From Xanthobacter aminoxidans (lineage in GTDB: Bacteria; Pseudomonadota; Alphaproteobacteria; Rhizobiales; Xanthobacteraceae), in the NCBI RefSeq assembly GCF_023571765.1, contig NZ_JAMJXC010000021.1, positions 1 to 64,000 on the forward strand: a stretch of DNA of 64,000 nucleotides, written 5' to 3'. The notes under the pieces are model-generated. The model had not been told where the DNA came from and made no database searches. It saw nothing but the letters and a program-made list of their open reading frames with translations. The position numbers and the translations under genes were made by a program. Numbering within the stretch: position 1 is the stretch's first letter; each line of letters opens with the position of its first letter. Below are positions 43,987 to 55,747 of the stretch, one piece after another.

Positions 43987-44294
43987 GCGCCACATCCCCC
44001 GAAATCTGCCGCTCGCAAGTGCATGCCCCCCGCATGGAGGACTTTCTTGGCACAAACAATGAGGCGGATGAACGGCGATCTCGGGAAATGCTGAACACCG
44101 GTGAAATGGTGCCATCGCGGCCACGCTCCCGGTTACCACAAATTGCATGAGAGAGGCGACCGAGCCCTATTCCATCCAATCGACTTGCAAATTGGCAAGC
44201 CCAGATTGCGCCCGTGGTTCTCGTACCGGAGCGGCTGTCCGCCTATCTCTGGCGCCAGACAGATACGAGGCTCCGCACGCCGGAGGAGGACACC
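43987..44294. promoter_or_regulatory. Divergent promoter gap with a 16-bp palindrome
   Basis: No gene is seen in these 308 bases. The palindrome CTTGCAAATTGGCAAG lies at 44184-44199 (one mismatched pair) about 95 bases before the VOC dioxygenase start. It resembles operators of MarR- or HxlR-type regulators, which often control ring-cleaving VOC proteins, but no regulator gene is next to it. Confidence 0.45.
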
Positions 44295-45260
44295 ATGCAG
44301 AACACCACCGAGACCACCGGGCCGCTCACCGGACTTCACCACGTCACGGCTATCACGGCCGACGCGCCCTACAACCATCGCTTCTACACCCAGACGCTCG
44401 GCATGCGCCTCGCGAAGAAGACGGTGAATCAGGACGACGTGTCCGCCTATCACCTCTTCTATGCCGATGGGGAAGCCAACCCCGGCACCGACCTTACCTT
44501 CTTCGACTGGCCGGTGCCGCGCGAGCGCCGGGGCAGCCATGCGGCCGTGCGCACCTCGCTGCGGGTGCGGGACGAGGCGGCGCTGGAATACTGGGCCGCG
44601 CGCCTCACCGACGCGGGCGTTTCCCATGCCGGCATCGAGACCCGCGACGACCGCCACCAGCTTCCGTTCGAGGACCGCGAAGGCCAGCGCCTCGCCTTGA
44701 TCGTGGATGACGGCAAGGGGCCGGGCGTGCCCTGGGCGAAGAGCCCGGTGCCTGAGGCGCACCAGATCCGTGGCCTCGGCCCGATCCTGATCTCGGTGCC
44801 AGACCTTGCGCCCACCGCCGCCGTGCTTCTCCACGTGATGGGCATGAAGGAAGTGCGCACCTACGCCGCCGAGGACGGCCGCGCCATCCATGTGTTCGAG
44901 ATGGGCGCGGGCGGCCCCGCCGCCGAGGTGCATGTGAAGGTGGAGCCGGGCCTGTCCCCCGCGGGGCAGGGCGCGGGCGCGGTGCACCATGTGGCTTTCC
45001 GCGTCACCACCTTCGACCAGTACGAGGAATGGGCGCGGCGGCTGAAGGAGCTGCGCATCCCCAACAGCGGCATGGTGGATCGCTTCTACTTCCGCTCGCT
45101 CTATTTCCGCGAGCCCAACGGTGTGCTGTTCGAACTGGCCACCGACGGTCCGGGATTTGCCGCCGACGAAGACGCCGCCCATCTGGGCGAACGCCTCGCC
45201 CTGCCGCCCTTCCTGGAAGGCCGCCGCAGCGCCATCGAGGCCGGCCTCAAGCCGCTCTGA
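44295..45260 (+). CDS. VOC-family ring-cleaving dioxygenase (MhqO-like)
   Basis: A 321-residue protein of two vicinal-oxygen-chelate modules. Metal-binding candidates are H15 or H16 in GLHHVTAI, the second-module histidine in AVHHVAFRV, and the glutamate in VLFELATDG. Length and segments such as [30 protein letters not shown] match MhqO/LinE-type hydroquinone dioxygenase-like proteins. A GGAGGA box precedes the ATG. Confidence 0.83.
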
Positions 45261-45341: not shown

Positions 45342-46472
45342 TCAGGCCCGCTCTTCCAGCGGGTGCGTGCGCAGCCGCATGGGATCGTAGAAGGGGGTGC
45401 GCACCACGTTGGCCTCGAAGCTCTCGTCCCCGTCCACCACGGTGAGCGCGGTGCCGAGCGCGGTGACGTCGGGCCGCAGCGAGACCAGCGCCAGCGACTT
45501 CATGAGGTGGCGGCTGTAGGTGGTGGAATTCACCACGCCCACCTCGGCGCCATCCTTGAAGATCTTCGCGCCGGGCGTGATCGCCTTGGCCGCCAGCACC
45601 TCGAGGCCGGCCTGGTGGGTGCGCTCCGTGCCCTTGCGGGCGAGGAGGGCCGCCTTGCCGCGGAAGTCCGGCTTGGAGAGGTCCACGGACCAGTCCATCA
45701 GCACCTCGAAGGGCGTGGTGTCCTTGTGCGGCATGTCGAAGGGGAAGAACAGCAGGGAGCCTTCCACCCGCACGATGTCGAGGCAATCCCACGACACGGG
45801 CATGGCGCCGAAGGGCTTTCCGACCTCGAGGATCTTGTCCCAGAGGAACACCGCATCCTTCGCCGCGCAGAAGACTTCATAGCCGCGCTCGGCCGAGTAG
45901 CCGCCGCGCGCCAGCGACACCGGGATGCCGAACAGGGTGGTCTTGCCATGCCCGAAATAGGGCAGGTCCTTCAGCACCATGGGGGTGTGGGGGGAGAGGA
46001 TGTCGAGGGCGAGGGGGCCCTGCAGGGAGAGGATGTGGACGTCGTTGTCGCGGGAGAACGTGACATCAAAGCCCTGCGCCACCACCGGCAGCGCCTCTTC
46101 CAGCGCGCCGCCGCCGTGGGAGAGGCGGAACTTGCCGTCGCCGTCCACATAGACGAGCACGTCGTCGATAAGCCCGCCTTCATCGTCGACGATGGACGAG
46201 ATCATGGAGCGGCCGGCCGGGATCTTGGAGATATCGGCGGTGAGAAGCTTGTTGAGGAAGGCGAGAGAGTCCGGCCCCGAGAGGTCGATGATCTTCAGCG
46301 CGGACACATCGAAGAGGCCGGCGCGGGTCCGCACCGTCTCCGTCTCCATATAGGGATCGGTCGCGTAGTGCTGGGGGATCGCCATGTCGTTCCAGGATTC
46401 CTCGAGCTTGGAGCCGAGTTCCCGGTGACGGTCGTTGAGGATCGATTGGCGCAGAATGGTCGCGCTGGTCAT
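45342..46472 (-). CDS. GcvT-family aminomethyltransferase/demethylase
   Basis: A tetrahydrofolate-binding protein of 376 residues. GLFDVSALKIIDLSGPDSLAFLNKLLTADISK, YVDGDGKFRLSH, RGGYSAERGYEVFC and the C-terminal barrel (VVNSTTYSRHLMKSLALVSL) place it in the GcvT/DmdA/YgfZ superfamily. It is not part of a gcvTHP operon. Its position across from the TMAO and dimethylamine genes suggests THF-dependent capture of a methyl or formaldehyde unit. A DmdA- or DmmD-like role is possible but cannot be fixed by reading. Confidence 0.75.
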   Translation of the reverse strand: MTSATILRQSILNDRHRELGSKLEESWNDMAIPQHYATDPYMETETVRTRAGLFDVSALKIIDLSGPDSLAFLNKLLTADISKIPAGRSMISSIVDDEGGLIDDVLVYVDGDGKFRLSHGGGALEEALPVVAQGFDVTFSRDNDVHILSLQGPLALDILSPHTPMVLKDLPYFGHGKTTLFGIPVSLARGGYSAERGYEVFCAAKDAVFLWDKILEVGKPFGAMPVSWDCLDIVRVEGSLLFFPFDMPHKDTTPFEVLMDWSVDLSKPDFRGKAALLARKGTERTHQAGLEVLAAKAITPGAKIFKDGAEVGVVNSTTYSRHLMKSLALVSLRPDVTALGTALTVVDGDESFEANVVRTPFYDPMRLRTHPLEERA

Positions 46473-46872
46473 GTGCCCTCTCTTGAAGGATGCCGGCCCG
46501 TAGCCGGGCCCGTCGTTAAGGCGGGCGGCTCAGGCGGCCTCAAGGCCAGCCATGCGCGCCGCGACGACCGCATCCTGATGGCGGGCCAACACTCCTGTCA
46601 ATTACTTTTCCTCAGAAGAAATTTCTTTGGTAGCATGGCGCGAAAGGCGGCAAAGGAAAGCGAGGTGGACCCATGCGTCGCCCAGATCGTGGTCATCCTG
46701 CGGGCCTCAAACGCCCAACTAATGGGCTTGCACCAAAACTGGCCCGTGGCACTCTCGTTTCTACCGCGTCAAAAAAGTTCACTGAGGGGAACAGGCGCGC
46801 CACCGCGTGATCGCAAATGGCAGGGACGGCCGCGGGGACTGCCCGCGCGCCGGCCCGGGCGGAGCTTGAGAC
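46473..46872. promoter_or_regulatory. Divergent promoter region of the methylated-amine island
   Basis: These 400 bases hold no supported gene. AT-rich patches occur near 46600-46640 (including the palindrome AGAAATTTCT) and near 46765-46785 (CAAAAAAGTT). The second 10-mer recurs before the permease gene at 51386-51395. The region should carry the start sites of the GcvT-family gene and of the plus-strand monooxygenase operon. Confidence 0.4.
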
Positions 46873-48276
46873 ATGTCCGAGACGAAGATGTGGGGCAAGG
46901 AAGAGTTCTGGGGGCTCGGCTTCGAGTGGGACCCCCAGTGGCTGCTGAGCGCCGAGCAGAAGGATCTGCAGGCAAAGCTCATCGCCTTGTGCGAGACCAC
47001 GCTGCGCGCGAACGCCGTGGAGAGCGATGCCAACTACATCTACCCCCGCAAGAATTTCGAGGCGCTGGCCACCCTCGGCCTGCTCTCGCTGAACGTGCCG
47101 AAGGAATTGGGCGGCCTCGGCCAGAACCATGTCTGCGCCGCCATGGTCGTGGAGACCATCGCCCGCTACGGCTGCCCCTCCACCGCCATGTGCTACACCA
47201 TGCACCTTGGCGCCGTGGCCGCCGCGCTGCTGCGGCACCACGACAATCCGCTGCTCACCGACATCCTGAAGCGGCTGGACAAGGACGTGCTCATCGGCAC
47301 CCTCTCCTATTCCGATCCCGAGACCGGCTCGCACTTCTGGTATCCCATCTCCTCCAAGGCCGAGGCCCATGGAGAAGGCTGGAAGGTCACCAAGAAGGCC
47401 TCCTGGACCACCTCCGGCGGCTTCGCCGACTGGTACATCGTCCAGACCACCAGCCCCGGCTTCTCCGGCGATTATTCCGACCTCTCCTGCTTCCTCGTCA
47501 CCAAGGACGAGGTGAAGGCCAACCCCTCCGAGTGGGACGGCCTCGGCCTGCGCGGCAACCAGTCCGGCCCCATCGTGGTGGAGAATGCGGTGCTGCCGAA
47601 GGAGGCCCTCGTCGGCCCCATCGGCGACGGCGCCAAGTCCAACGACGAGGTGGTGGACCCCTTCTTCCTCACCTGCTCGTCGGCCTGCTGGAACGGCATC
47701 TCGCTGGCGGTCATCGACATCGCCAAGCGCCACACCACCCGCAAGACCCACAATGACGTGGGCATGCGCGTCGCCGACTACCCCACCATCCAGGACTATG
47801 TGGGCGAGGCGATCATGGACACCAATTCCTGCCGCGCCTTCGACTACCAGATGGCGCAGGCGCTGGATTCGGTGACCAACAATTGCGACTGGTCGATCCA
47901 CAAGGACATCGATGCCCTGCCCCGTTCCTCCCTGCTCCACTGGCTGTGGCAGGTGAAGTTCGAGGCGGCCAAGAACGTCGCCCACGTGGTGGACAAGATG
48001 CTCCACGCCACCGGCGGCACGGGCTTCCGCCCAGCGCTCCAGATCGAGCGCTATCTGCGCGACGGCAAGGCCGGCTGGGTGATGGGCCCCACCAACGAGG
48101 TGCTGCGCCAGTTCGTGGGCAAGGCCGCGCTGCTCGGCTTCGGCTCGCTGGACTACTGGAACAAGTCGATCAACGAGCGCGTGCTCAACAACGAGATCAA
48201 GAAGATGGACGAGGCGGAGAAGCGCGCCTTCGCCGAAAAGCTGCTGGCCGAGCTTCAGCCGGCCAAGGTGGCGTGA
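46873..48276 (+). CDS. Acyl-CoA-dehydrogenase-fold flavoprotein, probable monooxygenase
   Basis: A 467-residue protein with the ACAD fold (LGLLSLNVPKELGGLGQNH; WTTSGGFADWYIV; ATGGTGFRPALQIERYLRDGKAG). Where dehydrogenases have the YEGT-type catalytic glutamate loop it reads VMGPTNEVLR, so the acid is absent at that place. A flavin reductase gene follows. This pairing fits group D two-component flavin monooxygenases (DszC/SfnC-like) more than fatty-acid oxidation. The substrate may be a methylated amine or sulfur compound. The ATG at 46873 was chosen by family start. Confidence 0.72.
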   Translation: MSETKMWGKEEFWGLGFEWDPQWLLSAEQKDLQAKLIALCETTLRANAVESDANYIYPRKNFEALATLGLLSLNVPKELGGLGQNHVCAAMVVETIARYGCPSTAMCYTMHLGAVAAALLRHHDNPLLTDILKRLDKDVLIGTLSYSDPETGSHFWYPISSKAEAHGEGWKVTKKASWTTSGGFADWYIVQTTSPGFSGDYSDLSCFLVTKDEVKANPSEWDGLGLRGNQSGPIVVENAVLPKEALVGPIGDGAKSNDEVVDPFFLTCSSACWNGISLAVIDIAKRHTTRKTHNDVGMRVADYPTIQDYVGEAIMDTNSCRAFDYQMAQALDSVTNNCDWSIHKDIDALPRSSLLHWLWQVKFEAAKNVAHVVDKMLHATGGTGFRPALQIERYLRDGKAGWVMGPTNEVLRQFVGKAALLGFGSLDYWNKSINERVLNNEIKKMDEAEKRAFAEKLLAELQPAKVA

Positions 48277-48297
48277 AGCGGGACGCCACCACGCGGA

Positions 48298-48337
48298 GCC
48301 TTCGTCCCTCTCCGTCGCTCAGGAGAGGGGCGAAGGC
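48298..48337 (+). terminator. Stem-loop between monooxygenase and flavin reductase genes
   Basis: GCCTTCG-CCCTCTCC and GGAGAGGG-CGAAGGC are complementary around an 8-base loop, with one unpaired position. No U-tract follows. It may be a dispersed palindromic repeat (the CCCTCTCC core recalls the one inside phnI) and may lower or stabilise expression downstream. Confidence 0.5.
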
Positions 48338-48402
48338 CCGCGCGCCCGCCATCGAAGGGGATTATCATGGACGGGCTGTCGCATTTCAGGAAGTACCTTG
48401 CC

Positions 48403-48915
48403 ATGACGACCATTGATCTCGACGCCCGTTTTGATCCGCGCGAACTGCGCAACGCCCTCGGCCGCTTCGCCACCGGCATCGCCGTGGTGATGGCGCAGGA
48501 CGAGGACGGCCCCATCGGCGTGACGGTGAATTCCTTCTCCTCCGTCTCGCTGGACCCGCCACTGATTCTCTTCTCCATGGCCCGCTCGCTGCACTCGCTG
48601 GCGCGGCTGGAGAAGGCCAAGGCCTATTCGGTCAACATCCTCATGGAGAGCCAGCAGGACATCTCCAACCGCTTCGCCCGTGCCGGCGAGGACAAGTTCT
48701 CCGCCACGCCCTGGGAGGTCGGTCCCTCCGGTGCGCCGCGCCTCGTGCCTGCCCATGCCACCTTTGAATGCGTGCCCTATGCCCATTACGACGGCGGCGA
48801 CCATGTGATCTTCGTCGGCCGCGTGGTGCACCTGCACGCCGAGGGCGAGGGCGATCCGCTGCTTTATTACCGCGGCAGCTACCGTCTGCTCGCCTCCATC
48901 GCTCAAGAGGGGTGA
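48403..48915 (+). CDS. Flavin reductase (HpaC/RutF family)
   Basis: A 170-residue split-barrel flavin reductase. LRNALGRFATGIAVVMAQDEDGPIGVTVNSFSSVSLDPPLILFSMAR is the family core, with the GDHVIFVGRVVHLHA strand near the end. It would supply reduced FMN or FAD to the neighbouring monooxygenase. An ATG at 48367 is possible, but 48403 matches the family N-terminus. The stop touches the tdm start. Confidence 0.85.
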   Translation: MTTIDLDARFDPRELRNALGRFATGIAVVMAQDEDGPIGVTVNSFSSVSLDPPLILFSMARSLHSLARLEKAKAYSVNILMESQQDISNRFARAGEDKFSATPWEVGPSGAPRLVPAHATFECVPYAHYDGGDHVIFVGRVVHLHAEGEGDPLLYYRGSYRLLASIAQEG

Positions 48916-51210
48916 ATGGACGCCTCCCTGCTTCCGCCCGGTCCTTCCCCGACCACCGCCGCCCGAGAGCGGGTGGTGGTGCGCGGCGGCGGCATGGCCG
49001 CCGTCACGCTCGGCGCCGGGGACCGGCTGACCGTGCTGGACCCGGAAGGGCTCCAGCCGGCGCTGGTCTTCGTCACCGATGGAGATGCGGTGGAGGATTG
49101 GGAGGGCGCCGGCGTGGAGACGCTGCCGGCGTTGCTGGACCAGGGGGGAGAGGGCAGCGCAGAGGTCGCCCGGCTGCTGGCGGAAAACGGCTGCGCGCCG
49201 GCCTCGCTGGCGGGACGGGCGTTGCTGTCGCGGGACGGCGGCGCGGGCGCGACGGCGGAGATCGCGGCGCGGGCCGATGTGCTCGTGGTGGTCGCAGCCC
49301 CCGGCGGCCCCATGTCGCCGGATGCGCAGGACGCACCCACCGACCTCATCGTGACTGTGACCCGCGCCCGGGGCCGCGGCCGGCCCCTTCCCGCCCCGCT
49401 CGCGCCGCCGAAGCTCGATGTGCGCGTGCCCGCGGCCGAGGCCCGCGCCTATACGGTGAAGGCGGGCGACTACATCCAGATCATCGACGTGGACGGCCGC
49501 CAGTGCGCGGACTTCCTCGCCTTCGACGCCGCCGCGCTCGAGGCCGGCGAGGAGTTCGGCCTCGACGCCACCACCACCCGCACCCTCATGGGCGCCGCCT
49601 ATCCGGGGCCGGGGCTCCATTCCAAATATTACGACGAGCGCCAGCTGCCGCTGGTGGAGGTGATCCGCGACACGGTGGGCCGCCACGACACCTTCGCCCT
49701 CGCCTGCTCGGCGAAATATTACGAGGACATGGGCTATCCCGGCCACGCCAATTGCACGGACAATTTCAACGCCGTGCTCTCACCTTACGGCATAAGGGAG
49801 CGGGCCGGCTGGCCGGCCATCAATTTCTTCTACAATACGGCCGTGGACCACACCAACGCGATCACCATGGACGAGCCATGGTCGCGGCCCGGCGACTATG
49901 TGCTGCTGCGGGCGCTCACCGATCTCGTATGCGCCACGTCCTCCTGCGCCGACGACATCGACCCCGCCAATGGCTGGGAGCCCACCGACATCCATGTGCG
50001 CGTCTATGACGGTGCCGAAAACTTCTCCAAGGGGATCGCGTTCCGCATGAGTGCCGACGCCGAACCGCGCCTGACGCGCGAGAGCGCCTTCCACCAGAGC
50101 CTTGCCGCCCACACGCGCAACGTCGTGGAGTATCGCGGCTTCTGGCTGCCCACCTGCTTCACCGGCGAGGGGCCGATTGCCGAATACTGGGCCTGCCGCG
50201 AAAAGGCGGCAGTGATGGACCTGTCTCCCCTGCGCAAGTTCGAGGTGACAGGGCCGGACGCCGAGATCCTGCTCCAGCGCACGGTGACGCGCGACATGCG
50301 CAAGCTGGCGGTGGGCCAGGTGGTCTATACCGCGCTCTGCTACGACCACGGCGGCATGATCGACGATGCCACCATCTTCCGCCTGTCGCCGACCAATTTC
50401 CGGGTGGTGTGCGGCGAGGAATTCACCGGCGCCTGGCTGCGCACCAAGGCGGCGGAGTGGGGCCTCAACGTGCATGTGCGATCGTCCACGGACCAGTTGC
50501 ACAACATCGCCGTGCAGGGGCCGCTGTCGCGGGAGATTCTCGCCGAGGTGATCTGGACCGGGGCCACCCAGCCCGCCATCACCGAGCTGAAGTGGTTCCG
50601 CTTCGCGGTCGCGCGCCTCGGGGGGCCGACCGGGCCGGCGCTGGTCGTCTCGCGAACCGGCTATACGGGCGAACTGGGTTTCGAGATCTGGTGCCATCCC
50701 AAGGATGGAAAGGCGCTGTTTGATGCGGTGTGGGCGGCGGGCGCGCCAAAGGGCATGAAGCCGCTCGGGCTTTCCGCGCTGGACATGCTGCGCATCGAGG
50801 CCGGGCTGGTCTTCGCCGGCTACGACTTCTGCGACCAGACCGACCCCTTTGAGGCCGGCATCGGCTTCGCCGTGGCGGAAAAGGACGAGGATTTCGTGGG
50901 GAAGGCGGCGCTGGCGCGGCGCAAGGCGAACCCGGCGCGGAAGCTCGTGGGGCTCGTGATCGAGGGCAACGACGCGGTGGGCCATGGCGACCCGCTCTTC
51001 GTCGGCCGGGCGCAGGTGGGTGTCGTCACCAGCGCCACGCGCTCGCCCATCCTGAAAGCCCAGATCGCCCTTGCCCGCATCGATGTCGCCCATGCCGCGA
51101 CCGGCACGGGCATCGAGATCGGCAAGCTGGACGGGCACAGGAAGCGCATCGGCGCCGAGATCGTGCCCTTCCCCCATTTCGACCCGCAGAAGACGAGGGT
51201 GAGAGCCTGA
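48916..51210 (+). CDS. tdm: Trimethylamine N-oxide demethylase (Tdm), DUF1989 plus GcvT-like
   Basis: A 764-residue fusion. Residues about 165-375 are DUF1989 (GDYIQIIDVDGRQCADFLAFDA), with a likely zinc site of H277 and C280 (GHANCTDNFN), C339 and C344 (DLVCATSSCADD). Residues about 405-764 are a GcvT-type THF domain (AVMDLSPLRKFEVTGPDAEILLQRTVTRDM; SRTGYTGELGFEIW). This layout is that of bacterial Tdm, which splits TMAO to dimethylamine and formaldehyde; the THF domain may trap the formaldehyde. dmmABC, which use dimethylamine, lie downstream. Confidence 0.88.
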   Translation: MDASLLPPGPSPTTAARERVVVRGGGMAAVTLGAGDRLTVLDPEGLQPALVFVTDGDAVEDWEGAGVETLPALLDQGGEGSAEVARLLAENGCAPASLAGRALLSRDGGAGATAEIAARADVLVVVAAPGGPMSPDAQDAPTDLIVTVTRARGRGRPLPAPLAPPKLDVRVPAAEARAYTVKAGDYIQIIDVDGRQCADFLAFDAAALEAGEEFGLDATTTRTLMGAAYPGPGLHSKYYDERQLPLVEVIRDTVGRHDTFALACSAKYYEDMGYPGHANCTDNFNAVLSPYGIRERAGWPAINFFYNTAVDHTNAITMDEPWSRPGDYVLLRALTDLVCATSSCADDIDPANGWEPTDIHVRVYDGAENFSKGIAFRMSADAEPRLTRESAFHQSLAAHTRNVVEYRGFWLPTCFTGEGPIAEYWACREKAAVMDLSPLRKFEVTGPDAEILLQRTVTRDMRKLAVGQVVYTALCYDHGGMIDDATIFRLSPTNFRVVCGEEFTGAWLRTKAAEWGLNVHVRSSTDQLHNIAVQGPLSREILAEVIWTGATQPAITELKWFRFAVARLGGPTGPALVVSRTGYTGELGFEIWCHPKDGKALFDAVWAAGAPKGMKPLGLSALDMLRIEAGLVFAGYDFCDQTDPFEAGIGFAVAEKDEDFVGKAALARRKANPARKLVGLVIEGNDAVGHGDPLFVGRAQVGVVTSATRSPILKAQIALARIDVAHAATGTGIEIGKLDGHRKRIGAEIVPFPHFDPQKTRVRA

Positions 51211-51436: not shown

Positions 51437-53119
51437 ATGAGTATCGCAGCAACCAACGAGGCGGTCGCCGCGCCTGAGGCCGGCTCGCTTCAACGCAAGA
51501 TCAGCTGGACCGGCGCCTTCTGGATCGCGAGCGGCGTGCCCGCCCTCGTGCTCTTCTCCATCGGCGCCATCGGAGCCACCGTGGGCGCGCCGGCCTGGTT
51601 CGTGTGGATCCTGTCCATCATCTTCGGTTTCATCCAGGCCTTTTCCTACGCCGAAATCGCCGGCCTGTTCCCGCACAAGTCGGGCGGCGCCTCGGTCTAT
51701 GGAGCCATCGCCTGGGTGCGCTACGGCAAGCTGCTCGCGCCGTTCTCGGTGTGGTGCAACTGGCTGGCGTGGTCGCCGGTGCTGTCCATCGGCTCCGGCC
51801 TCGCGGCGGGCTACGTGCTCTCCATCCTTTTCGCGCCGGATGCCGCCATCAACACCTGGCAGCTCACGCTGGTGGATCTCGGCTGGCTGAAGGCGGGCCT
51901 CGCGCTGCGCATCAACGCCACCTTCGTCCTCGGCGCCGTGCTGCTGCTCATCGCCTTCGCCATCCAGCATCGCGGCATCAGCCAGACCGCCAAGGTGCAG
52001 GTCATCCTCGGTGTCGTGGCGCTGCTGCCGCTGATCCTCATCGGCCTCGTGCCGCTGTTCACCGGCGACGTGCTCGCCGCCCATCTCGGGCCGTTTGCCC
52101 CGCTCGCCAAGGACGAGGCCGGCCGGGTGATCGCCGGCGAATGGAACATGGCGGGCCTCACCCTGATGGCCGGCGGCCTGTTCATCGCCGCGTGGTCCAC
52201 CTACGGCTTCGAGACCGCCGTCTGCTACACGCGCGAGTTCCGCGACCCGAAGAAGGATACCTTCAAGGCCATCCTCTATTCCGGGCTCCTGTGCATCTTC
52301 GTCTTCACCATCGTGCCCATCTCCTTCCAGGGCGTGCTCGGCCTCGGCCAGCTCGTGACCCCGGCGGTGGTGGACGCCTCCGGCACCGTGACCACGCCGG
52401 CGGTCTACGACGGCATCCTCTCCGCCGACATCTATTCCGGCATGGGCGTCGCCAGCGCCATGGCGGGTATGCTCAAGGGCGGCCCGCTGGTGCACAACAT
52501 CATCGTGGTGATGCTGATCCTCGCGCTCATGCTCGCCATCATCACCTCCATGGCCGGCTCCTCGCGCACGCTCTACCAGGCCTCGGTGGACGGCTGGTTG
52601 CCCAAGTACCTCAGCCACGTGAACGAGAACGGCGCCCCCACCCGCGCCATGTGGACGGACCTTGGCTTCAACCTCATCCTGCTGATGATGTCGGACTATG
52701 TGTTCATCCTCGCCATCTCCAACGTCTGCTACATCCTCTTCAACTTCCTGAACCTCAATTCCGCCTGGATGCACCGCATCGACCGTCCGGCCTGGGATCG
52801 CCCCTTCAAGGCCCCCATCTGGCTCATCGGCATGGGTACGGTGCTGGCCTACGTGAACCTGTTCCTGCTCGGCATGGGTGCCGACATCTGGGGCGCGGGC
52901 ACGCTGGTCACCGGGCTCATCGTATCGGCCGCCATCATCCCGGTGTTCCTGTTCCGGCACTATGTGACGGACAAGGGTCAGTTCCCGGCGGCGATGATGG
53001 AGGACATGCACCTCAAGGCCGAACCCGGTGCCGGCACGCGAGCGGGGATGCTGCCCTACCTCGCTCTCGTGCTTGGCGCCGTTGTCATCATCGTGGCCCG
53101 CAGCATTGCGGTCTATTGA
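51437..53119 (+). CDS. APC-family amino acid/amine permease
   Basis: A 560-residue membrane protein with about twelve hydrophobic segments of the amino acid-polyamine-organocation superfamily (SWTGAFWIASGVPALVLFSIGAIGA; SYAEIAGLFPHKSGGASVYGAIAWVRYG; STYGFETAVCYTREFRDPKKDTF). It lies between tdm and dmmABC, so it likely imports or exchanges a methylated amine such as TMAO, dimethylamine or a related compound. Substrate is inferred from position. The ATG at 51437 has a GAGGGG box. Confidence 0.82.
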   Translation: MSIAATNEAVAAPEAGSLQRKISWTGAFWIASGVPALVLFSIGAIGATVGAPAWFVWILSIIFGFIQAFSYAEIAGLFPHKSGGASVYGAIAWVRYGKLLAPFSVWCNWLAWSPVLSIGSGLAAGYVLSILFAPDAAINTWQLTLVDLGWLKAGLALRINATFVLGAVLLLIAFAIQHRGISQTAKVQVILGVVALLPLILIGLVPLFTGDVLAAHLGPFAPLAKDEAGRVIAGEWNMAGLTLMAGGLFIAAWSTYGFETAVCYTREFRDPKKDTFKAILYSGLLCIFVFTIVPISFQGVLGLGQLVTPAVVDASGTVTTPAVYDGILSADIYSGMGVASAMAGMLKGGPLVHNIIVVMLILALMLAIITSMAGSSRTLYQASVDGWLPKYLSHVNENGAPTRAMWTDLGFNLILLMMSDYVFILAISNVCYILFNFLNLNSAWMHRIDRPAWDRPFKAPIWLIGMGTVLAYVNLFLLGMGADIWGAGTLVTGLIVSAAIIPVFLFRHYVTDKGQFPAAMMEDMHLKAEPGAGTRAGMLPYLALVLGAVVIIVARSIAVY

Positions 53120-53130
53120 ACGGAGACGAA

Positions 53131-53718
53131 ATGAGCGACCAGGGTATGAAGAGCCGCCCGACGTACGCCCCGCTGGCCCCGGACCCGTCCGGACGGCACC
53201 ACCTGCTGGTGGTCGAGGCGGCCGAGGTTCCGGCTGAGGCACTGGCGGAGGGGGTTGTCCCCTCCGCCTTCGAGGTCTGGACGGTGGCCCGGCGCAGCGC
53301 CGTGCCCTCCGCCCCGGCCATGGAGGAGGCGCCGGGCAGCGTCGCCATCTTCCGGTCCGTGACGCACCTCTTCTCCGCGCTGGAGGAGCGGCTCGCCCGC
53401 GAGACCATGGGGCTGCGCCTCTATGCGGCGGGTGCCGAGCCGTTCCTGTGGGACGTGTGGGGCCGCGCCGAGAAGGCCGGCCTCAGCCGGCAGGAGACGG
53501 CGTTCGCCGAGGTCGGCCCGAAGGCGCGGCGCATTTATTGCGTCCACTGCCGGACGGTGACCGAGGGTGTCACCACCTCCATCTTCACCTGCCCGGGCTG
53601 CGGCGCATCCTTGTTCGTGCGCGATCATTTCTCACGGCGGCTCGCCGCCTTCATGGGCGTCCAGGTGGATGCCGAGGTGCCGGGTGAGGTGCCTGAGGCC
53701 GAGGAGCTCTACGCATGA
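53131..53718 (+). CDS. dmmA: Dimethylamine monooxygenase subunit DmmA
   Basis: A 195-residue protein matching the small subunit of dimethylamine monooxygenase. The C-terminal half has a zinc-ribbon-like CVHC...CPGC motif (IYCVHCRTVTEG; FTCPGCGASLFVRDHFSRRLAAFMGVQ). The N-terminal half is a less conserved RossmanN-type flavodoxin-like stretch. It overlaps dmmB by 4 bases. Assignment depends on the DmmBC neighbours. Confidence 0.82.
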   Translation: MSDQGMKSRPTYAPLAPDPSGRHHLLVVEAAEVPAEALAEGVVPSAFEVWTVARRSAVPSAPAMEEAPGSVAIFRSVTHLFSALEERLARETMGLRLYAAGAEPFLWDVWGRAEKAGLSRQETAFAEVGPKARRIYCVHCRTVTEGVTTSIFTCPGCGASLFVRDHFSRRLAAFMGVQVDAEVPGEVPEAEELYA

Positions 53719-54671
53719 CCGCCGCCCAGCCCTTCAATGTGCGCGTGCGCGAAATCGTCGAGCTCGCGCCGAGCCTCAAGCGCTTCTCCTTCGAGCCCGT
53801 CCATGGCGGCGTGTTCCCCACCCCGCCGGCGGGCGGGCATGTCCTCCTCACCCTGCGCGACGGCGCCCGGGTGATGAAGAACGCCTATTCCCTCGTCTCC
53901 CCGCCCTCCGAGCGGAGCCGCTACGACATCATCGTGCGCCTCGTCGCCCAGTCGCGCGGCGGCTCCTCCCATCTCCACCGCAAGGTCGCCCCCGGCGACG
54001 TGCTGGAGATGGCCAATCCGGTGAGCCTCTTCCCGCTCATTTCCACCGCGAAGAAGCACCTGCTCATCGGCGGCGGCATCGGCATCACGCCGATGCTCTC
54101 CTTCCTGCCGGAGCTGAAGGCGCGCGGGGCCCGCTTCGAGCTGCACCAGCTTGCGACGCTGGAGGAAGTCCCGGTGTTCGAGCGCCTGCTCGCGCCTTAT
54201 GCGGCGGGTGAGGAAATCCGCGTGCATGGCGGCGGTCGAGCCGCCTTCGATCTCGCCGGCCTGCTGGCGCGCCAGCCGCTCGGCACCCATGTCTATGTCT
54301 GCGGGCCGCACAGCCTGATGGAGGCGGTCGCCTCCACCGCCGCGGCCCTCGGCTGGCCCAAGACCAAGGTGCACAAGGAGAGCTTCGGCGGTGACATCAC
54401 CGGCCTGCCCTTCCGCGCCGTGCTCCGCAAGTCCGGCATCGAGGTGGAAGTGGGCGAGAGCCAGAGCCTGCTCGAGGCCATCGAGGCGGCCGGCGTCGAG
54501 GCCCCGTGCCTGTGCCGTGGCGGAGCCTGCGGCCAGTGCGCCACCCCCCTCGTCGAGGGCGAGGCGGAACACCGCGACGACTTCCTCTCCGCGGAGGAGA
54601 AGGCGGCCGGCACCCTCATCATGACCTGCGTGTCGCGCGCCCGCGGCCCGCGCATCGTCATCGACCTGTGA
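53715..54671 (+). CDS. dmmB: Dimethylamine monooxygenase reductase subunit DmmB
   Basis: A 318-residue ferredoxin reductase of the phthalate-dioxygenase-reductase/VanB type. An FMN/FAD barrel (KNAYSLVSPPSERSRYDIIV) is followed by the NAD-binding GGGIGITPMLSFL and a C-terminal plant-type 2Fe-2S domain with APCLCRGGACGQCATPL and a late CVS. It would pass electrons from NAD(P)H to the heme subunit DmmC. Confidence 0.88.
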   Translation: MTAAQPFNVRVREIVELAPSLKRFSFEPVHGGVFPTPPAGGHVLLTLRDGARVMKNAYSLVSPPSERSRYDIIVRLVAQSRGGSSHLHRKVAPGDVLEMANPVSLFPLISTAKKHLLIGGGIGITPMLSFLPELKARGARFELHQLATLEEVPVFERLLAPYAAGEEIRVHGGGRAAFDLAGLLARQPLGTHVYVCGPHSLMEAVASTAAALGWPKTKVHKESFGGDITGLPFRAVLRKSGIEVEVGESQSLLEAIEAAGVEAPCLCRGGACGQCATPLVEGEAEHRDDFLSAEEKAAGTLIMTCVSRARGPRIVIDL

Positions 54672-54685
54672 TCCCGGGAGGTCCC

Positions 54686-55747
54686 ATGACCGTTCAGTTC
54701 AAGCCCGCAGAGACCTTCCGCGACACCTTCACCTACAAGAAGTCGCCCGAGGATCTCCTGCGCTTCCCCTTCCCGTTCCCCGAAGACAGCTACATGTACT
54801 CGGTGAACATCGAGCCGCACGTGCGCGGTGGCCCCACGGCCGCCTTCCAGGCGCAGTTCGACGTCGACGAGCACTATATCGCCGAATGCAAGGAGCGCGC
54901 CCGCATCCTCGCCGAGGACCCCAAGCGCTGTCAGGTGCTGCCGCACATGATGACGGCGGAGTGGGACAGCCTCGAGATGATCATGGAGAACCTCGCGGCC
55001 GACTATCCCGAGCACTTCACCCTGTCGAAGGACGGCGACGCCTGGACCTGGGTGAACCGGCCGCTCGGCATCCAGCAGAGCTTCATCTTCGGCAAGGCGG
55101 AGACGCTGCCCTGCGGGCCGTTCGAGTACATCACCCGGCAGGCGCAGGGAGATTTCACCCTTCAGGACCAGCGCGAGGACAACCTCTTCGTGGACGGCGG
55201 CATGGTAACGAGCCAGGCCGACTGGTCGCTGGAATTCGATATCGGCATGAGCTTCCAGGAGTGGCACGGCCCGGTGCCGCTGGCGCATGAGAAGGGCGTG
55301 TTCGACCGCGCCCTGAAGTATCTCCTGCGCCTCCAGTACGGCCAGCCGGTGCGCCGCCTCAACTGGACCATGACGGTGAACCCACGCCTCGACACCTCGC
55401 CGGAGAATTATCCCGTGTGGGGGCCGGACAAGGCGTCGGTGACGCCCGAGAACGTGGCGGAGAAGGTGCATCTGCGCGTGGAGCTGCAGACGCTCTATCG
55501 CCTGCCCCGCTCCAACGCCATCCTGTTCGGCATCCGCTGCTATCTCACCAGCGTCGCCGACATCGCCAAGGTGCCGAAGTGGCGCCGGCGGCTGCACCGG
55601 GTGCTGCGCGACCTGCATCCGGACATCGCCGCCTACAAGGGCATCCCGCGCTATCAGCAGATGGTGGTGGACTATCTGGCGCCGCTGGATGACGGCTCGG
55701 CCACCTCGCCCGGCATCGCCCCGGATATGGAGAAGATCGAGGCCTGA
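54686..55747 (+). CDS. dmmC: Dimethylamine monooxygenase, heme-dependent subunit DmmC
   Basis: A 353-residue protein of the DUF3445 / heme-dependent oxidative N-demethylase family. Family parts include the NRPLGIQQSFIFG-like region, LLRLQYGQPVRRLNWTMTVNPRLDTSPENYPVWGP, and RVELQTLYRLPRSNAILFGIRCYLTS. It would oxidise dimethylamine to monomethylamine and formaldehyde. A GGGAGG box precedes the ATG at 54686. Confidence 0.87.
   Translation: MTVQFKPAETFRDTFTYKKSPEDLLRFPFPFPEDSYMYSVNIEPHVRGGPTAAFQAQFDVDEHYIAECKERARILAEDPKRCQVLPHMMTAEWDSLEMIMENLAADYPEHFTLSKDGDAWTWVNRPLGIQQSFIFGKAETLPCGPFEYITRQAQGDFTLQDQREDNLFVDGGMVTSQADWSLEFDIGMSFQEWHGPVPLAHEKGVFDRALKYLLRLQYGQPVRRLNWTMTVNPRLDTSPENYPVWGPDKASVTPENVAEKVHLRVELQTLYRLPRSNAILFGIRCYLTSVADIAKVPKWRRRLHRVLRDLHPDIAAYKGIPRYQQMVVDYLAPLDDGSATSPGIAPDMEKIEA

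Follow-up and report, generated by a model that had tools for sequence, protein, structure and literature searches.

The window analyzed here, the first 64,000 nucleotides of contig NZ_JAMJXC010000021.1 from Xanthobacter aminoxidans, contains an island for the use of trimethylamine N-oxide (TMAO) in which an acyl-CoA dehydrogenase (ACAD)-fold protein and a flavin reductase, putatively a two-component trimethylamine (TMA) monooxygenase, stand beside the TMAO demethylase gene tdm. The ACAD-fold protein (46873–48276, + strand; 467 amino acids; Pfam Acyl-CoA_dh_N/M/1) is the predicted TMA N-monooxygenase, and the HpaC/HsaB-like NADH:flavin reductase behind it (48367–48915, + strand; 182 amino acids; Flavin_Reduct, 143.8 bits) its predicted reductase component. 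Among NCBIfam models, the reductase scored 162 bits against the 4-hydroxyphenylacetate (HPA) hydroxylase reductase and 151 bits against HsaB, both below the cut-offs. Divergent from the ACAD gene lies the gene for a GcvT-family protein (45342–46472, − strand; GCV_T, 201 bits; Pfam GCV_T and GCV_T_C), probably a DmmD-like tetrahydrofolate acceptor of one-carbon units; reading of the sequence places 400 bp between the two (46473–46872), presumably their shared regulatory region. All three open reading frames had been called in an initial annotation made from the sequence alone, and their coordinates and Pfam domains agree with that call.

The tdm gene (48916–51210, + strand) starts at the base that follows the end of the reductase stop codon (48915), a spacing that makes co-transcription of the two very probable. 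Its product shows the DUF1989 plus GcvT architecture of Tdm and exceeds the curated cut-off (NF053776, 1292.8 bits; cut-off 1100). Downstream follow a TMAO permease (51437–53119, + strand; NF053774, 847.8 bits; cut-off 690) and three genes for a dimethylamine (DMA) monooxygenase, encoding a DmmA-like subunit (53122–53718, + strand; PF22289/PF22290 and NF041259 over cut-off), a DmmB-like reductase subunit (53715–54671, + strand; Fer2, FAD and NAD domains, placed between DmmA and DmmC) and a DmmC-like, HODM_asu-like haem subunit (54683–55747, + strand; PF11927, 252 bits). With Tdm and the permease over their cut-offs and DmmA-like and HODM-alpha-like domains in place, the TMAO island that had been proposed for this region is real.

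The initial annotation had also seen no flavin monooxygenase of the Tmm type here, which is now borne out genome-wide. A Tmm protein query gave no match at E ≤ 1e-60 in the 77 contigs of the host genome, and the single PF00743 match among them scored 26.6 bits. The query itself reached 608–782 bits against 13 solved bacterial flavin monooxygenase (FMO) or Tmm sequences, with 193 bits for the next best. The Pfam matches of the ACAD-fold protein do not include PF00743, the domain of Tmm as a class B FMO.

We then examined the ACAD-fold protein itself. It is 95% identical to its counterpart in Xanthobacter tagetidis, and the host is close to Xanthobacter. An AlphaFold model (mean predicted local distance difference test score, 81.5) adopts the ACAD fold, with a best structural match of Z 37.6 over 335 residues (root-mean-square deviation 2.1). 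The structure matches listed are mostly acyl-CoA dehydrogenases with few monooxygenases (the best 50 of 524 by VIA-align and the best 50 of 690 by Foldseek); the best fold matches are dehydrogenases, and in Foldseek second place goes to 5z8t, a flavin monooxygenase, and rank 44 to DszC (3x0x). The fold by itself cannot tell a dehydrogenase from a monooxygenase, and our reading of the chemistry therefore rests on the missing catalytic base and on gene context.

In acyl-CoA dehydrogenases, the Glu of the YEGT loop serves as the catalytic base. Residues 401–410 of the window protein read GWVMGPTNEV, and in a profile alignment to the solved acyl-CoA dehydrogenases 3pfd, 8i4p and 7w0j, VMGPTN lies opposite the IYEGTN loop with G405 in place of Glu; the initial annotation had noticed the altered motif. 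This position is Gly in all 86 members of the core clade described below and in all five paralogues outside it. The residues F264 (Phe in 86/86 core-clade members) and F265 (85/86) stand at or beside the alternative base position, that of Glu254 in isovaleryl-CoA dehydrogenase. Glu is thus absent both from the YEGT loop and from the helix-G position. Because the catalytic base is missing, oxidation of acyl-CoA by this protein is unlikely. Features of group D monooxygenases are present instead: the ACAD fold, the lack of an acyl-CoA dehydrogenase Glu and, in the window, an adjacent flavin reductase gene.

Residues with conservation of 98% or more across the core clade that differ in all five paralogues include M106, C107, F264, F265, S269, S270, W273 and H287. 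The stretch F264–W273 presumably lies within the helix that bears the alternative base in other ACADs, and for that reason its residues are candidates for the TMA pocket. If the family is one of TMA monooxygenases, all eight residues would be such candidates. No pocket was drawn from the model, since it is of low confidence at 383–406, the loop that bears the motif.

Next, we asked how the ACAD-fold protein is distributed, using the best 80 of 115 relatives from named genomes (68–95% identity). They occur in Pseudomonadota, Cyanobacteriota, Acidobacteriota, Gemmatimonadota, Latescibacterota, Armatimonadota and other phyla, many of them in metagenome-assembled genomes. In a maximum-likelihood tree of 91 rows, 86 fell into one supported clade (100/99), within which cyanobacteria and an armatimonad branch apart from the remaining members. 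The paralogues L123–L127 (genomes G484, G360, G533 and G457; 47–64% identity) were considered as clade members and rejected, as they lie outside the 86-row clade. None of the five paralogue loci had a Tdm match over 300 bits, one of them (L200) showing an 89-bit match cut by the edge. One paralogue from outside the core clade (L198, on G484:C56), at 61% identity, has two trimethylamine-dehydrogenase-like genes close by, on account of which the wider ACAD family may act on other methylated amines.

Whole-genome tests for Tdm and Tmm were run on 50 of the 80 genomes, chosen mainly for long contigs. Tdm was found in 49 of them, in every case at E ≤ 1e-230, and 30 exceeded the curated cut-off. The background rate at E ≤ 1e-200 was 34 of 385 genomes in a class-level sample and 27 of 398 in a phylum-level sample; the ACAD set overlaps the class sample in at least two genomes (G603 = G360 and G617 = G533, with identical coordinates), and the two sets are therefore not independent. 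The only genome lacking a Tdm match at E ≤ 1e-120, that of Leptolyngbya sp. BC1307 (L064), carries fragmented Tdm frames at L064:13389–14155, close to an intact ACAD gene. At the level of loci, and with bit thresholds of our own, Tdm was encoded at 60 of the 80, at 45 of them within 1 kb of the ACAD frame, and a DmmC relative at 25; among the 20 loci at which Tdm was not seen, 11 are short contigs of less than 9 kb.

Cyanobacterial loci (L085, L059, L073, L074 and others) hold a Tdm-like protein near the ACAD gene, several with a copper amine oxidase or an ammonium transporter. The one cyanobacterial Tdm checked for it, in L085 (5595–7508), has the DUF1989 plus GcvT architecture. Judged from these genes, cyanobacteria apparently use TMA or TMAO. 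A protein of about 170 amino acids with no Pfam or NCBIfam match (L074:10949–11476 and relatives) recurs in 12 Tdm-bearing loci, 11 of them cyanobacterial and one from an armatimonad.

Having established the linkage to Tdm, we compared the occurrence of the ACAD-fold protein and Tmm across Tdm-bearing genomes. The sample joined the 34 class and 27 phylum genomes, six of them shared, to 55; it includes the host genome, which was not blindly drawn. The ACAD query at E ≤ 1e-40 matched in 7 of the 34 class genomes and in none of the 21 further ones, and removal of G484, which holds only the 61%-identity paralogue from outside the core clade, reduced the ACAD-bearing set from 7/55 to 6/55. Forty-one of the 55 genomes had Tmm only, six core ACAD only, none both and eight neither. 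This exclusion gave a one-sided Fisher p of 1e-4 by genome (1.7e-5 with G484 counted as ACAD-bearing, 7/55), 9e-4 by genus (5 ACAD and 24 Tmm genera of 34) and 0.015 by family (3 ACAD and 18 Tmm families of 25). Without the host genome, the values were 4e-4, 0.003 and 0.054, respectively. The family-level value is the fairer one because related genomes are not independent.

The two enzymes also exchange places within one operon. In a genome of the same order as the host (L176, G001), the operon runs permease–DmmA–DmmB–DmmC–Tmm–Tdm–GcvT on one strand, and in Zoogloeaceae (e.g., L030, L037, L050 and L055), it runs permease–DmmA–DmmB–DmmC–ACAD–reductase–Tdm, likewise on one strand. Tmm also immediately precedes Tdm in two further genomes (G034 and G117), in the slot taken by the ACAD and reductase genes in the window. 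The GcvT protein of the window shares 57% identity with the product of the GcvT gene downstream of tdm in the tmm-type operon of G001. The initial annotation suggested that the GcvT protein could capture a one-carbon unit released by the oxygenase; the one-carbon role remains probable, and this identity makes it more likely that the protein serves the demethylation of TMAO and DMA than the ACAD-fold protein itself.

Gene content, the missing base, linkage to Tdm, the near exclusion with Tmm and its in-place replacement are all observed here, and from them we infer the substrate, the flavin chemistry and the pairing of reductase with oxygenase. Because Tdm linkage extends across phyla, Tmm is nearly excluded and the operon swap occurs in place, TMA N-oxygenation is the reading we favor: the ACAD-fold protein and the reductase are likely a two-component group D flavin monooxygenase that converts TMA to TMAO and replaces the one-component Tmm non-orthologously. 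The same evidence supports the earlier proposal that the pair is an alternative entry into the TMAO pathway. Its suggested substrate, a methylated N or S compound, is kept as to N-oxygenation and narrowed to TMA, and the generic N or S compound is given up. In the proposed mechanism, the reductase would reduce flavin with NADH, and the oxygenase would bind the reduced flavin, form a C4a-(hydro)peroxyflavin with O2 and pass one oxygen atom to the TMA nitrogen. Tdm would then cleave TMAO to DMA and formaldehyde, DmmABC would demethylate DMA, giving methylamine, and one-carbon units may be handed to tetrahydrofolate by the GcvT protein.

Several observations weigh against this reading, and we consider them together with the explanations that they favor. 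At the family level, the exclusion is weak (p = 0.015, or 0.054 without the host genome). Among the 50 genomes chosen for the ACAD-fold protein, five also carry Tmm: in three Labrys genomes it lies apart from the ACAD cluster, and in two others, a proteobacterial metagenome-assembled genome and one Rhodospirillaceae strain, a single cluster holds Tmm, Tdm and ACAD. The exclusion is therefore strong, not absolute. Redundancy at the TMA-oxidation step does occur, since Paracoccus aminophilus has two redundant tmm genes according to PMC4543880. Eight of the 55 Tdm-bearing genomes, three of them less than 90% complete, had neither Tmm nor core ACAD, and neither enzyme is therefore a strict requirement for Tdm. 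The host strain may also possess a second route from TMA to DMA, suggested by a trimethylamine dehydrogenase homologue of 735 amino acids on contig C67 (L182:328–2535, − strand; 1270 bits to PDB 1djn). Such a homologue at more than 60% identity was found in only one of the 50 ACAD-bearing named genomes (G591, Zoogloea dura). The genome of Xanthobacter autotrophicus DSM 432 (G581) showed neither Tmm nor a trimethylamine dehydrogenase.

The five genomes that keep Tmm and ACAD together would suit a different substrate, with the two proteins acting as an N- or S-oxygenase on another methylated compound, such as dimethyl sulfide (DMS), another tertiary amine or a precursor, and the link to Tdm reflecting a shared one-carbon or nitrogen economy. 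Group D enzymes oxidize DMS and dimethyl sulfoxide (DMSO), as PMC13352529 reports, and one Rhodospirillaceae locus (L082) has an M24 peptidase and an APH-type kinase as neighbors rather than DmmABC. The ACAD substrate in this divergent Rhodospirillaceae branch, in which L086 likewise encodes an APH-type kinase, is less certain. However, a different substrate predicts neither the exclusion with Tmm, both being present in 0/55 genomes, nor the replacement of Tmm in place within one operon, and we regard this explanation as unlikely.

The reductase is the other point of weakness. With phmmer and a bit threshold of our own, it was encoded at 38 of the 80 ACAD loci, at 29 within about 500 bp of the ACAD gene, and one further locus gains a reductase by Pfam; 42 of the 80 lack it at the phmmer threshold. 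None of the 23 cyanobacterial loci had one in the DNA around the locus, and small proteins beside tdm (cyanobacterial L085 and L059, armatimonad L077) gave no Pfam match, reductases having been sought at the loci only. In the close relative Aquabacter spiritensis, too, there appears to be no reductase gene between ACAD and tdm (L016:9719–11211 onwards). By analogy, these loci may be explained by one reductase serving several oxygenases, as PMC13352529 describes for Acinetobacter baylyi.

The 42 loci without reductase would also agree with a true acyl-CoA or amine dehydrogenase that passes electrons to electron-transfer flavoprotein (ETF), the reductase belonging elsewhere. The fold points the same way, as the best 50 of 524 VIA-align matches are acyl-CoA dehydrogenases or oxidases, and so does the nearest named family, Rv1679/FadE16 (NF049984), a putative acyl-CoA dehydrogenase, at 204 bits against a cut-off of 600. 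Yet the core clade has no Glu at either base position, and no beta-oxidation or ETF gene appeared among the few frequent neighbor clusters annotated, a non-systematic survey of one representative each; a dehydrogenase is thus very improbable. Least probable, and likewise very improbable, is that the pair oxidizes DMA or adds a subunit to the demethylation steps: in several lineages it forms a single operon with tdm and dmmABC, but DmmABC is intact in the same cluster and Tmm is the missing step.

Open reading frames in the neighborhoods of the ACAD genes were clustered, and one representative of some frequent clusters was annotated. These clusters comprised an ammonium transporter (13 loci), a copper amine oxidase (11 loci), a glutamine-synthetase-like protein (11 loci) and glutamate-synthase-type, GXGXG and amidotransferase proteins (4–5 loci each). 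Such neighbors, frequent in other phyla, speak for the proposed reading, in that they would fit the gamma-glutamylmethylamide/N-methylglutamate route, as outlined in PMC5520151, together with amine oxidation of methylamine; other amines would be possible too. Just outside the island, the window encodes a glyoxalase/ring-cleaving-dioxygenase-like protein (44214–45260, + strand) that is conserved nearby in five Xanthobacter loci.

Taken as a family, these proteins probably represent an undescribed group of ACAD-fold, two-component TMA monooxygenases, a second and independently evolved aerobic entry to the pathway from TMA through TMAO to DMA. It would be spread over cyanobacteria, Beta- and Alphaproteobacteria, Acidobacteriota, Gemmatimonadota and Armatimonadota, the last three each represented by single or few metagenome-assembled genomes, and surveys that use tmm as marker would miss TMA oxidation in these lineages. 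Counts of tmm have served in metagenome surveys as a gauge of aerobic TMA use (e.g., PMC5520151). If our reading is correct, aerobic TMA oxidation is undercounted in bacteria without tmm, cyanobacteria included; the step from TMA to TMAO evolved at least twice, on unrelated folds; TMA use by organisms with tdm and without tmm is explained; and a function is found for a conserved clade that until now had no closer named model than a putative acyl-CoA dehydrogenase. The literature matches listed contained no description of an ACAD-type, two-component or alternative TMA monooxygenase, in searches that left subscription papers and preprints outside, and those listed for cyanobacterial TMAO demethylase held nothing on this ACAD family. 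Papers listed for an alternative or missing Tmm were off the subject except one on Tmm and DMS. A 2026 paper on TMA regulation (PMC13390433) does not use the terms acyl-CoA or flavin reductase in its main text. As to phenotypes, PMC3570799 scores Starkeya novella negative for both TMA and methylamine.

Among known systems, trimethylamine dehydrogenase (Tmd), whose homologue lies elsewhere in the host genome, also demethylates TMA; it is a dehydrogenase of the old yellow enzyme family that yields DMA directly, without TMAO. The GcvT protein of the window, encoded beside dmmABC and tdm and probably DmmD-like, was compared with the GcvT gene product next to tdm in a tmm operon (57% identity). Rv1679/FadE16, although the best NCBIfam match of the ACAD-fold protein, remains far below its cut-off. 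Tmm shares with the window protein the proposed reaction and the slot in the tdm/dmm operon. It is a one-component, NADPH/FAD-dependent enzyme of a different fold and family, whereas the window protein combines the ACAD fold with a separate reductase. Tmm is classed as a class B flavin monooxygenase in PMC13352529. That architecture of ACAD fold and separate flavin reductase is shared by the group D monooxygenases DszC, HpaB and the A. baylyi DMS monooxygenases; the window protein is 20% identical to DszC (3x0x) and 25% to the 'flavin-containing monooxygenase' 5z8t in the Foldseek alignment. We know of no group D enzyme reported to act on TMA, and our literature searches found none. In A. baylyi, group D ACAD-fold monooxygenases and one flavin reductase oxidize DMS and DMSO (PMC13352529), by analogy a close precedent for the window pair. 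Both the type of oxygenase and the reaction are thus known, and what is new, as far as our searches reach, is the pairing of the two.

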